From Acidobacteriota bacterium (GTDB lineage Bacteria > Acidobacteriota > Terriglobia > Versatilivoradales > Versatilivoraceae): DNA of 5,828 nt. Positions 1 through 5,828 of the stretch are shown one piece after another. The notes under the pieces are model-generated. The model had not been told where the DNA came from, searched no databases, and was given only the letters and a program-made list of their open reading frames with translations. Position 1 is the first letter of the stretch. The number at the start of each line of letters is the position of its first letter. The DNA lies in contig JAPOZE010000303.1 in assembly GCA_026706225.1 (NCBI GenBank), positions 1 to 5,828 on the forward strand, written 5' to 3'. A program made the translations under genes and the position numbers.

Positions 1-910
1 CACCGGTCCTGTCCGCAACGGCCTCTTCCCGTGTGGCTTGCGGAATTGCACGAGCGCTCACCCTGACGGCTACGTCAATTCCGGTGCTCTCCCCGCCTCG
101 CAGGACACCGCGGGTGGGGGACACATCCCGGTAGTCGCGTCCCACCGCAATACGCACGTGCCGTTCGTCGGCCAGGCACCGGTTGGTAGGGTCGAATCCC
201 ACCCAGCCGAGTTCCGGCAGCAGGCACTCGACCCAGGCGTGGGTGGCATTTTCCGGCGTCTGCTCGCCATCCAGACCGGCGAGGTGCAGATAGCCCGAGA
301 CATAGCGGGCAGGAATGCTCCAGGAGCGTGCGATCGCGATCATGGTGTGGGCGTAGTCCTGACAGACGCCGCTACCTGACTTGAGGATCTGCTCGATGGA
401 GGACATGACCGACGTACTTCCGGGAACGTAGCGGAGGCAGCGGTGGAGCGTGTCTGAAAGCCGTAGAAGCCCCTCCAGAGGATCCCTCCCGGGCTGGATG
501 CCGTGCCGGTCGACGAATTGGGCGAGCAGGGATGACGCTTGGGTCAGAGCGCTCGGGTTGACAAAGTCCCAGAGGGAGAAGGAGTCCTGCCAGGATTGGA
601 TCTCTTTCCAGGCACCCGCGCCAAGGCAGTGCGGCAGGGGACTGAAGGGGGCCGGCGAGACCGTGGAACGGGCGGTGATCTCCAGAACCCGATGTTCGCC
701 GTTGAGATTGAAGACGTGTCGCGTATTGCCGAAACAATCCTGCTCGGAGGTCAGAACAGCGGGCGGGTCGGTTTCGACTTCAAAGTTCAGAACTCGCTGC
801 CCCCGGTCGTTTTGCGGTTTCAGACAGAGCATCATCACGCACTGCTTCGGACCGTGGGTGTAGCGGTAGCGTGAGAGGTGCTCGATGTCGTAGTGAACGG
901 ATTCTGCCAT
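1..910 (-). CDS. Transglutaminase-like cysteine protein, C-terminal end beyond the window
   Basis: My reverse-strand translation gives 303 residues from ATG 910-908 with no stop before the window edge. The N-terminal part (MAESVHYDIEHLSRYRYTHG, then LCLKP near residue 30) matches the N-terminal beta region of bacterial transglutaminase-like proteins. The core follows: SGSGVCQDYAH with candidate nucleophile Cys183, NATHAWVE with His224, and GWVGFDPTN with Asp240. This is a complete Cys-His-Asp triad in the usual order. The tail RIAVGRDYRDVSPTRGVLRGG is also typical. Bacterial members are usually about 270-330 residues, so only a short end is probably missing. Members probably act as peptidases or amide-bond exchangers; the substrate here is unknown. 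The start lies 4 nt after the Alpha-E stop with no clear Shine-Dalgarno sequence, suggesting translational coupling. No signal peptide is visible, so a cytoplasmic location is likely. The family call is firm; the function is inferred. Confidence 0.93.
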   Translation of the reverse strand, partial: MAESVHYDIEHLSRYRYTHGPKQCVMMLCLKPQNDRGQRVLNFEVETDPPAVLTSEQDCFGNTRHVFNLNGEHRVLEITARSTVSPAPFSPLPHCLGAGAWKEIQSWQDSFSLWDFVNPSALTQASSLLAQFVDRHGIQPGRDPLEGLLRLSDTLHRCLRYVPGSTSVMSSIEQILKSGSGVCQDYAHTMIAIARSWSIPARYVSGYLHLAGLDGEQTPENATHAWVECLLPELGWVGFDPTNRCLADERHVRIAVGRDYRDVSPTRGVLRGGESTGIDVAVRVSARAIPQATREEAVADRTG

Positions 911-2053: not shown

Positions 2054-3448
2054 TCAGTCGCGATCCTCCTCTTCCGGCATCAGCACGAACTCGGGATAGG
2101 CCTCGATACCCAGCTCCCCGGCGTCCTGCCCCAGTTGCTCGACCTGGCGCGTCACTCGAGCGGTCAAGGTCAGATCCAGCAAACGCCACAGCACCCAGGA
2201 GCTTGCGAACACGAAGGCTCCGATGGCCAGGATGCCGATCAGTTGGACGCCGAGCTGGCCGCCTCCGGCAATGCAGGCAGCCAGCGTTCCCCAGATGCCG
2301 GCGAACAGGTGGGCCGGTATGGCTCCCACCACGTCATCCAGCCTGACCCTCTCCAGGACCTTCAGTCCGGCGGTGCACACAACGCCTCCGATGGCGCCGA
2401 TGATCACGGCCCAGTAGTGGCCCGTGATGTCGGGTGCGGCGGTGATTGAGACCAGTCCGGCGATGGCGCCGTTCAGTCCGGCAAACAGATCCATGCGCCC
2501 CAGGAGAGGCCGCGAGACAGCCAGAGCCATCATGACTCCGGCGGCTGCCGCCAGGTTGGTGTTGACCAGCACGTGGCTCATGGCGATGACGTCGGCCGCG
2601 CTCCCCAGCGCCAGTTGTGAGCCGCCGTTGAAGCCGAACCATCCGAACCACAGGATGAAAACACCCAGGGTCACCGCCAGGATGTTGGAGGGCGGAGTGG
2701 GCTTGGTGGTGCCGTCCTTGCGGAATTTGCCGTACCTCGGCCCGACCACCATGGCCCCGGCAAGCGCCGCCCATCCTCCGGTGCTGTGCACGATGGTCGA
2801 CCCGGCAAAGTCCGTGAAGCCCATTGCGCTGAGCCAGCCCCCGCCCCAGGTCCAGGCGCCCACGATCGGATAGATGATGCCGGTGAGCAGCAGCGTGAAG
2901 AGGAAAAACGGCCACAACTTGACCCGTTCCGCCAGTGTTCCCGACACGATGGAGGCGGCCGTAGCCACGAAGACCATCTGGAAGAACCAGTCCGACATGG
3001 TGGAGTAGCCCTTCTTGAGCAGCTCGGCTGACGGGGCGGCGGCCTCCGTTGCCGCCAGCAGGGCGACCTCGGTCTCCGACGGGCCGTAAAGGAACTTGAA
3101 TGAGCCGATCACGCTCCCCACGTCGACATACATGAGGTTGTAGCCGATGAAATAGTAGGCCAGTCCCGCGATGGAGTAGAGGCCGATGTTCTTCAGGCAG
3201 ATCATGGAGGCGTTCTTGGTGCGCACCGAACCCGATTCGAGCATGGTGAATCCCGCGCACATCCACATCACCAGGGCGCCCCAGAGGAGAAAGGAAAAGG
3301 TGTTGAAGACGAACACGACTTCGCTTTCAACCGCTGCCTGCGCCGCTGTGGTTCCAAGCAGCAGGCAGCCGACCAGGAGGAGTGTCTTTCCCGCCAGGCT
3401 GCCGGCGCGGCTGTTGTTCAAGATTCCGTTCATCACTGGTTTTGGCAT
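2054..3448 (-). CDS. amt: Ammonium transporter, Amt/MEP family
   Basis: This is a 464-residue polytopic membrane protein. Residues 20-39 look like a cleavable signal peptide ending TTAAQAA, as in many bacterial Amt proteins. Family blocks in order: AGFTMLESGSVRTKNA (65-80), FFQMVFVATAASIVSGTLAER (155-175), the Amt signature DFAGSTIVHSTGG (213-225), WFGFNGGSQLA (270-280), LNGAIAGLVSITA (325-337) and DDVVGAIPAHLFAGIWGTLA (371-390). Asp213 and the twin-histidine pore pair His221/His380 are present. The residue after His380 is Leu where Gly is common. The cytosolic C-terminal tail (from about 430) keeps the AYPEF end; in characterised Amt proteins this tail contacts PII. Amt proteins move NH4+/NH3 across the inner membrane under nitrogen limitation. 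Unusually, no PII (glnK) gene is adjacent; the neighbours are the ATP-grasp and Alpha-E genes on the same strand. A strong AGGAGGT site fixes the start. The stop is TGA. Confidence 0.97.
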   Translation of the reverse strand: MPKPVMNGILNNSRAGSLAGKTLLLVGCLLLGTTAAQAAVESEVVFVFNTFSFLLWGALVMWMCAGFTMLESGSVRTKNASMICLKNIGLYSIAGLAYYFIGYNLMYVDVGSVIGSFKFLYGPSETEVALLAATEAAAPSAELLKKGYSTMSDWFFQMVFVATAASIVSGTLAERVKLWPFFLFTLLLTGIIYPIVGAWTWGGGWLSAMGFTDFAGSTIVHSTGGWAALAGAMVVGPRYGKFRKDGTTKPTPPSNILAVTLGVFILWFGWFGFNGGSQLALGSAADVIAMSHVLVNTNLAAAAGVMMALAVSRPLLGRMDLFAGLNGAIAGLVSITAAPDITGHYWAVIIGAIGGVVCTAGLKVLERVRLDDVVGAIPAHLFAGIWGTLAACIAGGGQLGVQLIGILAIGAFVFASSWVLWRLLDLTLTARVTRQVEQLGQDAGELGIEAYPEFVLMPEEEDRD

Positions 3449-3614: not shown

Positions 3615-5063
3615 TCAAGCTTCCAACACCCAAAGATCCTTGCCCCCGCCTCCCTGGCTGGAGTTCACCACCAGGCTGCCACGCCGCAAGGCCACGCGGC
3701 AGAAGGCCCCGGGCACCAGGCGGGTCCTGGTCCCGTGGAGCACGAAAGGGCGCAGGTCCACGTGCCTGGGTTCGGGGCGGCCCTCGATCAGGCAGGCTGC
3801 GCGCGACAGCGGCAGCACCGGCTGAGAGATGAAATCGGCCGGGTCGGCGCGCACCTGCCTGGCGTAGGCCTCGCGCTCTTCGGGGGTCGAGTGGGGACCG
3901 ACCAGCATGCCGTAGCCCCCCGACTCGCCCACTCGCTTCACCACCAGGTTCTCCAGGTTGTCCAGCGTGTACTCGAGATCCTCGGGCCGCCGGCACAAGT
4001 GGGTCCGGACGTTGCCCAGGATGGGTTCCTCTCCCAGGTAGTAGCGAATCATGTCGGGGACGTAGGCATAGACGCTCTTGTCGTCCGCGATGCCCGTTCC
4101 GGGGGCGTTGACGACGGCCACATTGCCGAGCTTGTAGGCGTGGATCAACCCGGGGACCCCCAGCAGGGAGTCCTCGCGGAAGACCAGGGGATCCAGAAAG
4201 TCGTCGTCCACTCGCCGGTAGACCACGTCCACGCGCCGCAGTCCCGTGGTGGTGCGCATGTACACGAAACCGCCGTTGACCAGCAGGTCGCGGCCTTCCA
4301 CCAGTTCGGCGCCAATCTCCCGGGCCAGGAACATGTGTTCGTAGAAGGCGGAGTTGTAGACTCCCGGTGTCAGCAGGGCAATGCAGGGGTCGCTGCGGCC
4401 GCTCGGCGAGAGCTCGCGCAGCGTCTTCTGCAGCAGGCGCCCGTAGTTCTCGACCCCCCGCACCCGGGAACTTCGGTATAGACGGCGCAGGCTGGTCTTG
4501 ACCACCTTGCGGTTTGCGATCATGTAGGAAACGCCTGAGGGCACCCTCAGGTTGTCTTCCAGCACCTGGAAGCCCTGGTTGGTGCGCACCAGGTCGGTGC
4601 CGCAGATGGCGACCCAGGTTCCGTGAGGCACGGTGACGCCGCACATTTCGCTGCGGTACTGGGGGCAGCCGCGCACGATGTCCGCCGGAATCACGCCGTC
4701 CTCGATGATGCGGGCTTCCCCGTAGACATCGTTCAGAAAGCGGTTCAGGGCCGCCAGGCGCTGGGTCAGGCCGATTTCAAGATGTTTCCACTCGGCGGCC
4801 GGCAGGATCCGGGGCAGACAGTCAACCGGAATAATCCGCTCGTTGGCTTCGGCGTCCCCATAGACAGTGAAGGAGATGCCCTCATTCGAAAAGGAGCGGG
4901 TGACCCGCTCCTGGATGCTGTTGATCTCGTCGCTGGAGAGTTGGCACAGGGTCTCGTAGAGCAGTCGGGAATGCTCCCGGGGCTCCCCGTTCGGCAACAG
5001 CATCTCGTCGTAGATCCCGTCGTCAAGATCGTAACCGGCAAATTCCATGGAGCCGTTCACCAT
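3615..5063 (-). CDS. Circularly permuted type 2 ATP-grasp protein (DUF404/DUF407)
   Basis: The 482-residue length is typical of the family. Conserved blocks in order: EGISFTVYGD (61-70) with ERIIPVDCLPRI (75-86), LNRFLNDVYGEARI (106-119), VLEDNLRVPSGVSYMIANRK (167-186), LTPGVYNSAFYEHMFLARE (231-249), VNAPGTGIADDKSVYAYVPD (318-337), YYLGEEPILGNV (341-352), LVVKRVGESGGYGMLVGP (373-390) and HVDLRPFVLHG (434-444). The Lys376 and GGYG region is the likely nucleotide-binding part. ATP-grasp enzymes activate a carboxylate as an acyl-phosphate and join it to an amine or thiol; the substrate of this subfamily is unknown. The stop is TGA. The start at 5063 has AGGA 5 nt upstream; the internal ATG at 5048 has a poorer site. 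It is the first gene of a same-strand series with amt, Alpha-E and transglutaminase genes, and its upstream DNA is an inverted-repeat element. Confidence 0.95.
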   Translation of the reverse strand: MVNGSMEFAGYDLDDGIYDEMLLPNGEPREHSRLLYETLCQLSSDEINSIQERVTRSFSNEGISFTVYGDAEANERIIPVDCLPRILPAAEWKHLEIGLTQRLAALNRFLNDVYGEARIIEDGVIPADIVRGCPQYRSEMCGVTVPHGTWVAICGTDLVRTNQGFQVLEDNLRVPSGVSYMIANRKVVKTSLRRLYRSSRVRGVENYGRLLQKTLRELSPSGRSDPCIALLTPGVYNSAFYEHMFLAREIGAELVEGRDLLVNGGFVYMRTTTGLRRVDVVYRRVDDDFLDPLVFREDSLLGVPGLIHAYKLGNVAVVNAPGTGIADDKSVYAYVPDMIRYYLGEEPILGNVRTHLCRRPEDLEYTLDNLENLVVKRVGESGGYGMLVGPHSTPEEREAYARQVRADPADFISQPVLPLSRAACLIEGRPEPRHVDLRPFVLHGTRTRLVPGAFCRVALRRGSLVVNSSQGGGGKDLWVLEA

Positions 5064-5064
5064 G

Positions 5065-5096
5065 AGTGTCCTGTCCGAGAAATAGGGCTACCATTT
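5065..5096 (+). repeat. Left arm of the inverted repeat
   Basis: This 32-bp arm pairs with 5303-5334 with 4 mismatches. It begins 2 nt from the ATP-grasp start codon and includes that gene's AGGA ribosome binding site on the opposite strand. Confidence 0.85.
5069..5072 (-). promoter_or_regulatory. Ribosome binding site of the ATP-grasp gene, inside the repeat arm
   Basis: AGGA (in CAGGACACTC) lies 5 nt before the ATG at 5063. It decides that start. It lies wholly within the left inverted-repeat arm, so the repeat now supplies the translation signal. In the right arm the matching tetrad is AGAA. Confidence 0.45.
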
Positions 5097-5194
5097 CCGC
5101 TGGAGGTTCCATCTGGAAACGGTCGGCAGGAGAGGCCCGTTGCGATTCAGCGATCCGGCACCGTTGTGCTCTCCCTCTCCGGAACCTCCATCGG
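5097..5194. repeat. Nested inverted repeat inside the element
   Basis: 5097-5110 and 5181-5194 form a 14-bp inverted repeat with one mismatch, including the perfect 10-bp pair TGGAGGTTCC/GGAACCTCCA. It abuts the left terminal arm directly. Confidence 0.6.
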
Positions 5195-5298
5195 CCCTCC
5201 GGGTTCGGGCGGAACGGCGCCGTCTTCGTCGTCGCTCCTCCTAACAATGAATGGGCATTGCGTCGTCGTCGCTCCTAGAATCCGGCGCCGTTGCGCTC
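5153..5298 (+). repeat. Direct repeats inside the element
   Basis: Two 19-bp copies, 5153-5171 and 5280-5298, read ATCCGGCRCCGTTGYGCTC and match at 17 of 19 positions; both differences are transitions. A second pair, CGTCGTCGCTCCT, is exact at 5227-5239 and 5264-5276. Repeated subterminal motifs of this kind can be transposase binding sites, but that is inference. Confidence 0.55.
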
Positions 5299-5403
5299 CG
5301 AAAGATGGCAACCCTATTTCTCGGACAGAACACTAGGGAGGTTTTCGGAGGACCTGTTTCTGATTTCGGGCATTATCAGGCGTCATGCGGCCGTTGTCAA
5401 TCC

Positions 5404-5439: not shown

Positions 5440-5486
5440 AGGGACTTGCGCTTGCATCGGTTCCGGTTGTGACGGTAGACTTTTGA

Positions 5487-5505: not shown

Positions 5506-5508
5506 GAA

Positions 5509-5515
5509 AGGAAGG
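5509..5515 (+). promoter_or_regulatory. Ribosome binding site of the formate dehydrogenase gene
   Basis: AGGAAGG lies 5 nt before the ATG at 5521. The same frame is closed upstream by TAG at 5476-5478. Together these make 5521 the most likely start even though the usual N-terminal iron-sulfur domain is then missing. Confidence 0.55.
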
Positions 5516-5520
5516 CTTTC

Positions 5521-5828
5521 ATGGAGTGGAAACGAGGCGAGCGGCTGACCGAGCCTCTGGTGAGGGACGGCAGCGGTCTTCGCCCGGCAGGTTGGGACGA
5601 GGCGCTGGATCGGGCCGCCCGAGGATTTCAGAGGGTTGCCAGGGACAAGGGGCCGCAGGCTTTCGGGATGTTCAGTTGTTCCAAGACGACCAACGAGCTC
5701 AACTTCGCCGCCCAGAAGTTCGTTCGTACGGTCATTGGCTGCAACAACATCGACAGTTGCAACCGCACTTGACACGCTCCCAGCGTCGTCGGTCTGGCGA
5801 CGGTTTTCGGGATGGGTGGCGGCACCAG
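5521..5828 (+). CDS. fdhA: Selenocysteine-containing formate dehydrogenase alpha subunit, N-terminal part
   Basis: Molybdopterin oxidoreductases of this group oxidise formate to CO2 at a bis-MGD Mo or W centre ligated by Sec or Cys. The first 83 residues, RLTEPLVRDGSGLRPAGWDEAL (8-29, with one residue omitted from the run here: R8-L29), GMFSCSKTTNEL (49-60), FAAQKFVRTVIGCNNIDSCNRT (62-83), match the family up to the active site. Codon 84 is TGA (5770-5772). The frame then continues HAPSVVGLATVFGMGGGT to the window end, as homologues do (for example NRT-U/C-HAPSVVGL). Escherichia coli FdhF has Sec140 in RVUHGPSVAGL at the same place. A bSECIS-like hairpin follows. The start corresponds to about residue 54 of FdhF, so the [4Fe-4S] domain with its four cysteines is absent from the visible frame. 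A decayed Cys gene (TGC to TGA) is the main alternative. It is divergent from the ATP-grasp cluster. Confidence 0.88.
5770..5772 (+). other. In-frame TGA read as selenocysteine (Sec84)
   Basis: The TGA sits between NRT and HAPSVVGL, exactly where formate dehydrogenases carry the metal-ligating Sec or Cys. Family sequence continues in the same frame on both sides with no shift. Confidence 0.85.
5784..5802 (+). promoter_or_regulatory. bSECIS hairpin for selenocysteine insertion
   Basis: CGUCGUC (5784-5790) pairs with GGCGACG (5796-5802) over 7 bp, one of them a U-G wobble, closing the 5-nt loop GGUCU (5791-5795). Eighteen nt separate the UGA from the loop. As I recall the E. coli fdhF message, it also has 18 nt followed by GGUCU, whose G and U contact SelB. 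The fdhF bulged U is not evident here; the U-G wobble lies near its place. Confidence 0.8.

Follow-up and report, generated by a model that had tools for sequence, protein, structure and literature searches.

Catalytic-subunit gene of a probable split, selenocysteine-containing formate dehydrogenase at the end of a DNA stretch from an Acidobacteriota bacterium

The 5,828-nucleotide stretch analyzed here (the window; positions 1–5,828 of contig JAPOZE010000303.1, assembly GCA_026706225.1, Acidobacteriota bacterium) ends in a plus-strand frame that opens at ATG5521, meets an in-frame TGA at 5770–5772 after 83 codons, and runs on for 18 further in-frame codons (HAPSVVGLATVFGMGGGT, 5773–5828) until the window end cuts the gene. 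Is this TGA a stop or a selenocysteine (Sec) codon, and, if the frame encodes a formate dehydrogenase, where is the N-terminal [4Fe-4S] domain that it lacks? An earlier inspection of the letters alone (the sequence-only reading) had proposed a selenoprotein formate dehydrogenase whose TGA occupies the position of Sec140 in E. coli FdhF. That identification was supported but incomplete, as it overlooked the missing [4Fe-4S] domain of the catalytic subunit. The window very probably ends in the catalytic-subunit gene of a split, nicotinamide adenine dinucleotide (NAD)-linked, Sec-containing formate dehydrogenase.

The 102-residue translation with TGA as Sec matched TIGR01591 (formate dehydrogenase alpha; 5.9e-29, residues 6–100), 7qv7_S (FdhF of the hydrogen-dependent CO2 reductase; 5.1e-26) and 1aa6_A (E. 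coli FDH-H; 1.5e-16). Because all three align, and TIGR01591 does so on both sides of the TGA, the match is on alignment grounds not a chance one; the sequence past the TGA is conserved formate dehydrogenase sequence, as had been proposed. TGA5770 fell on the Sec/Cys column of the solved formate dehydrogenases, and the Sec of fdhF is residue 140, in line with the proposed equivalence. The open reading frame (ORF) caller's stop at 5772 and its 83-residue fragment had also been placed correctly. The sequence-only reading had named loss of the frame soon after 5828 as the sign of a wrong call. In the near relative L001 (97.4% DNA identity over 388 bp, 99% protein identity), the frame stays open for 552 codons past the TGA, 534 of them beyond the window end, and ends in TAG.

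Relatives were collected by a genome scan, from which the best 80 of at least 549 confirmed loci were kept, with 81 catalytic genes. The catalytic codon was TGA in 64 genes and a Cys codon in 17 (nine TGC, eight TGT), with no others. The frame continued for 546–580 codons past this codon except at L002, L004 and L043, where the genes leave the contig. The active-site residues C84 (Sec), H85 and R277 were invariant in the alignment (given for 36 of the 81 genes) and aligned with E. coli FdhF. Synonymous codon use was compared over 204 conserved four- or six-fold columns across the 64 TGA genes. The four top-ranked columns all lie just after the TGA: L92 (100% CTG), V89 (98% GTC), A93 (98% GCG) and G91 (97% GGT), against 84% for the fifth-ranked column and a median of 54%. 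Across the whole of these genes, GGT accounts for 14% of Gly codons. It occupies the G91 position in 63 of 65 TGA genes, the window included, vs one of 17 Cys genes; the within-gene control is the stronger of the two comparisons because the Cys genes all come from Actinomycetota.

The conserved codons coincide with a predicted bacterial Sec insertion sequence (SECIS)-like hairpin at 5784–5802 (plus strand), with a 7-bp stem and a GGUCU loop at 5791–5795. The loop begins 19 nt after the UGA, the same spacing as in E. coli fdhF, and this loop together with the extreme synonymous conservation marks it as a candidate SECIS hairpin. A long non-coding RNA match from Rfam in this region was discarded as chance (E 3.8).

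These data bear on the simplest alternative, that UGA5770 is a true stop, leaving either a degraded formate dehydrogenase or a peptide of 83 residues. The ORF caller does end there, and 24 of 32 relatives fetched from the protein database stop at exactly this position. The open frame conserved over about 550 codons past the TGA in relatives, the near-invariant codons just after it, the restriction to TGA or Cys codons in 81 genes, and the presence of sel genes in kin all speak against a stop, which we consider extremely improbable. Family codons, alignment, codon conservation, the GGUCU hairpin and the sel genes of kin instead make Sec at TGA5770 a well-supported reading. Among the database relatives, P0014 and P0017 show W and P0016, P0019 and P0023 show G at the Sec position; these are most likely annotation artefacts, as if UGA had been translated as Trp or Gly. 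A candidate UAA-encoded Sec (TAA "inside" some formate dehydrogenases) was rejected, as the three cases inspected (G064, G100 and G040) read TGC, TGC and TGA at the Sec position, with TAA at the gene end. Five pattern matches in viral contigs included no relative.

Support from the Sec machinery comes to the window gene by way of close kin. Of the 80 loci, 30 had their genomes searched (fetched locus TGA in 23, Cys only in seven), with 14 control genomes for SelB and tRNA-Sec. SelB passed the cut-off in 21 of 23 TGA genomes (17 full length), three of seven Cys-only genomes and two of 14 controls. SelD was found in 21 of 23 TGA and four of seven Cys-only genomes, tRNA-Sec above the gathering score in 21 and four (G001 and G013 at 47–51 bits), and SelA in 19 and four. 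In the Cys-only genomes of L044, L053 and L075, neither SelA nor SelD was found at 1e-30, and no tRNA-Sec score exceeded gathering. Many genomes are draft metagenome-assembled genomes (MAGs), so absences say little. The L003 genome held SelA, SelB, SelD and tRNA-Sec, the last confirmed by ARAGORN and Rfam. The sel genes that the sequence-only reading had required elsewhere in the organism occur in its close kin: the four nearest genomes (G001–G004) have SelB (4/4), SelD (4/4), tRNA-Sec (69 bits in three) and, whole or nearly so in two, SelA. One in-frame TGA was present in SelD of 16 of 25 genomes, G001–G004 included, and SelD of these four is for that reason probably a selenoprotein itself. 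ARAGORN found a linked tRNA-Sec at one (L065) of 49 loci out of the 80, so selC is not generally linked to the locus over the flanks that were fetched.

How, then, does the protein begin? An in-frame TGA5470 and TAG5476 (5470–5478, plus strand) bar an upstream extension into a [4Fe-4S] domain, and a Shine-Dalgarno-like AAAGGAAGG (5507–5515, plus strand) lies 5 nt before ATG5521 as a putative ribosome-binding site. On account of these stops and this site, we place the start at 5521 and take the N-terminal [4Fe-4S] domain to be absent. The first 83 codons (5521–5769) begin at the RLTEPLVRDG segment with no Molybdop_Fe4S4 domain, and on the TIGR01591 profile the match begins at position 51.

The missing part was found on a different protein. 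In L003, the catalytic gene (10001–11911) is followed by a NuoE–NuoF fusion (12188–14059, P0124) and an Fe-S gene (14135–15163, P0123). P0124 carries PF01257, PF01512 and PF10589, the domains of a NuoE/NuoF-like diaphorase subunit. P0123, of 342 residues, carries Fer2_4, ferredoxin-type 4Fe-4S and PF04879 (Molybdop_Fe4S4) domains, the last being absent from P0122, the catalytic protein of L001. TIGR01591 is covered at 1–53 by P0123 and at 51–672 by P0122, and Rhodobacter capsulatus FdsA is likewise tiled by the two proteins, at 24–304 (Fe-S) and 307–932 (catalytic). The structure model of P0122 (predicted local distance difference test, pLDDT, 85.2) aligned with FdhF 56–696 and FDH1 340–981. 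The Fe-S gene of L001 (4273–5303) is frameshifted into two overlapping frames; as the L003 gene is intact, this is perhaps a low-coverage assembly error.

Could the gene instead be an ordinary fused formate dehydrogenase that lost its [4Fe-4S] domain through an assembly error or a repeat insertion? The window does contain a 270-bp inverted-repeat element (5065–5334) about 190 bp upstream of the start. L001–L004, however, lack the element at this site and have the ATG in the same place, 83 codons before the TGA; an Fe4S4 piece adjoins the catalytic gene upstream at none of the 80 loci, vs directly before the catalytic part in all seven fused controls (plasmid records); and profile positions 1–53 lie on the downstream Fe-S protein. 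The chance that a truncated fused gene explains the locus is therefore very slight.

The split arrangement is general among the best 80 loci. NuoEF follows the catalytic gene in 76, the Fe-S gene in 73 and the Fe4S4 tail in 71, and the complete order catalytic–NuoEF–Fe-S with tail stands at 71; eight losses are explained by contig ends (L002, L004, L043, L060, L028, L068, L051, L070) and one, L031, has its Fe-S gene elsewhere. The best Fe-S match always lay downstream on the same strand, and each of the 73 loci with an Fe-S gene has it as a separate gene; weak second matches occurred at L030 and L048, and at L065 one lay upstream on the other strand, over 9 kb off. The L002 and L004 genomes also hold a standalone Fe-S gene. 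A tree of 86 rows (62 Sec, 17 Cys, seven fused) separated split from fused genes with a Shimodaira–Hasegawa-like approximate likelihood ratio test (SH-aLRT) value of 100, and the separation was kept in a repeat with five fused genes (84 rows). The members are labelled to eight phyla, many of them as MAGs. Parsimony required at least two Sec/Cys changes. The nesting of Cys genes among Sec genes makes Sec the apparent ancestral state of the split clade, with outgroups that are few and long-branched (the tree tool warns of this). Among 80 evenly drawn Acidobacteriota genomes, that of L003 included, members scoring at least 1137 bits occur in five, each with one TGA and a short frame of 650–672 residues; the next best match reached 717 bits in a 940-residue frame. 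At 7966–11896, L071 (Actinoallomurus iriomotensis) carries two catalytic genes in tandem, one Sec (TGA) and one Cys (TGC), followed by one NuoEF and one Fe-S gene.

A third alternative is that the catalytic subunit needs no adjacent [4Fe-4S] cluster, the Fe4S4 tail being a relic or serving another partner. The low-confidence model of the Fe-S subunit leaves some room for this. Against it, Lys327 and the four Cys of the tail do not vary among the 24 Fe-S subunits given of the 73 found, the split point lies within the short linker joining the two parts, and the genes are kept together at 71 loci; we judge it improbable, though less so than the other two alternatives. Lys327 aligned with Lys44 of E. 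coli, a residue that, according to PMC12176258, stabilises the cluster and matters for activity.

Under the preferred split arrangement, UGA5770 would be decoded as Sec by SelB and tRNA-Sec with the help of the hairpin just downstream, as the conservation suggests. The catalytic chain would hold Mo or W bis-molybdopterin guanine dinucleotide with Sec84, His85 and Arg277 (L001 numbering). The electron-accepting [4Fe-4S] cluster would sit off this chain, provided with the conserved Lys by the C-terminal ~55 residues of the separate Fe-S subunit, which would also carry a [2Fe-2S] site like that of NuoG and a pair of ferredoxin-type [4Fe-4S] sites. Electrons would pass from formate through the Sec–Mo/W site to the trans-supplied [4Fe-4S] cluster, the Fe-S subunit, the NuoE/NuoF-like subunit (flavin mononucleotide) and finally NAD+. 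Gene content and gene order were observed directly in the relatives, and so were conserved ligands and Sec signals in the family; we infer from these findings the two-protein assembly with its cluster in trans, the cofactors, the electron route, the NAD acceptor and formate as substrate.

Several observations weigh against this account. The downstream NuoEF and Fe-S genes lie outside the window and are known from L001 and other relatives. P0122 scored below the TIGR01591 equivalog cut-off (632.1 vs 666.25), profile positions 1–50 being off this chain, and the Fe-S subunit model was poor (pLDDT 51.5) and was not used. L031 has another gene at the Fe-S place, its standalone Fe-S gene lying on a different contig; the L060 genome gave just a weak Fe-S match. 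The hairpin was no more stable in the window than in shuffles (z −0.1 to −0.9), and the Rfam search of its region returned no SECIS family. Four of the 21 SelB matches span just the first ~340 of 581 positions. As the tRNA-Sec family also passed the gathering score in five of the 14 controls, little weight attaches to weak matches, and the one in G001 (50.9 bits) may be another tRNA. SelA is whole in G003; in G002 it covers 72–454 of 455 positions, with one TGA inside the match. G001 yielded just a fragment that scored under the cut-off, and a search of G004 yielded no SelA.

With the relay on another protein, the metal site and the first electron relay could be separately made, mutated and recombined, so that both the relay and the equivalent of Lys44 could be directly tested for their roles. 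It is conceivable, though we lean against it, that a whole formate dehydrogenase lineage cut its chain between the metal site and the first acceptor, with [4Fe-4S] and Lys lent by another protein and the catalytic subunits exchangeable on one Fe-S/diaphorase platform. The exchangeable part of this conjecture draws on the tandem genes of L071, which, if it is true, would permit a selenium-dependent swap of catalytic subunits. The selenoproteins of this family are also numerous and prone to being reduced to ~83-residue fragments by gene callers, and for this reason formate metabolism is likely under-annotated in Acidobacteriota, Acidimicrobiia and Chloroflexota.

The remaining window genes lie on the minus strand and are collinear with L003; no link to formate was seen among them. 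They encode a transglutaminase-like protein, cut by the window (2–910), an Alpha-E protein (915–1889), an Amt transporter (2054–3448) and a circularly permuted ATP-grasp protein (CP-ATPgrasp, 3615–5063). Outside 5061–5335, L002 and L003 align with nearly the whole window at ~90–94% identity and L004 with most of it, all three being from Acidobacteriota. The inverted repeats of the 270-bp element are 30 nt long and 90% complementary (CTGTCCGAGAAATAGGG core). The G001, G003 and G004 genomes contain several copies of nearly full length (mostly 84–90% identity), and G002 contains partial ones; by its repeat structure and copies it is classed as a repeat of this Acidobacteriota group resembling a miniature inverted-repeat transposable element.

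The Sec part of this system is ordinary, since few bacterial selenoproteins are as widespread as FdhA, according to PMC5029168 and PMC13188914. The split is another matter: searches of open-licence literature, as distinct from wider print, listed no paper recognised as describing such an enzyme, and the passages searched in PMC13397495, PMC8808070 and PMC1242214 do not mention it. The 80–90-residue database entries named "formate dehydrogenase major subunit" share the N-terminus of the split family and appear to be gene-caller fragments and not proteins. The catalytic chain is nearest to 7qv7_S (471.9 bits) and 1aa6_A (430 bits) and has the Sec/Cys–His pair and the Arg in common with both, but in E. 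coli FdhF the chain itself includes a [4Fe-4S] part, ahead of about residue 56, whereas the split catalytic chain has none. In the NAD-dependent FdsABG/FDH1 type, represented by FdsA of R. capsulatus (6tg9) and FDH1 of Methylorubrum extorquens (8j83, 7vw6), alpha is one chain with a fused NuoG-like N-terminus. The split family has instead a separate gene for it, with the cut at about FdsA residue 305, an inverted order (catalytic, NuoEF, Fe-S) and Sec in most members. Its Fe-S subunits also lack the Cys-rich DHPLDCLTCAANGDC segment of FdsA, the motif of its His-Cys cluster. FdhF of Halococcus dombrowskii (L107) is alike in having a NuoG-N-like Fe-S protein as a separate gene beside fdhF, but differs in keeping the Fe4S4 piece on FdhF itself, in frame before the catalytic part (2821–3006).
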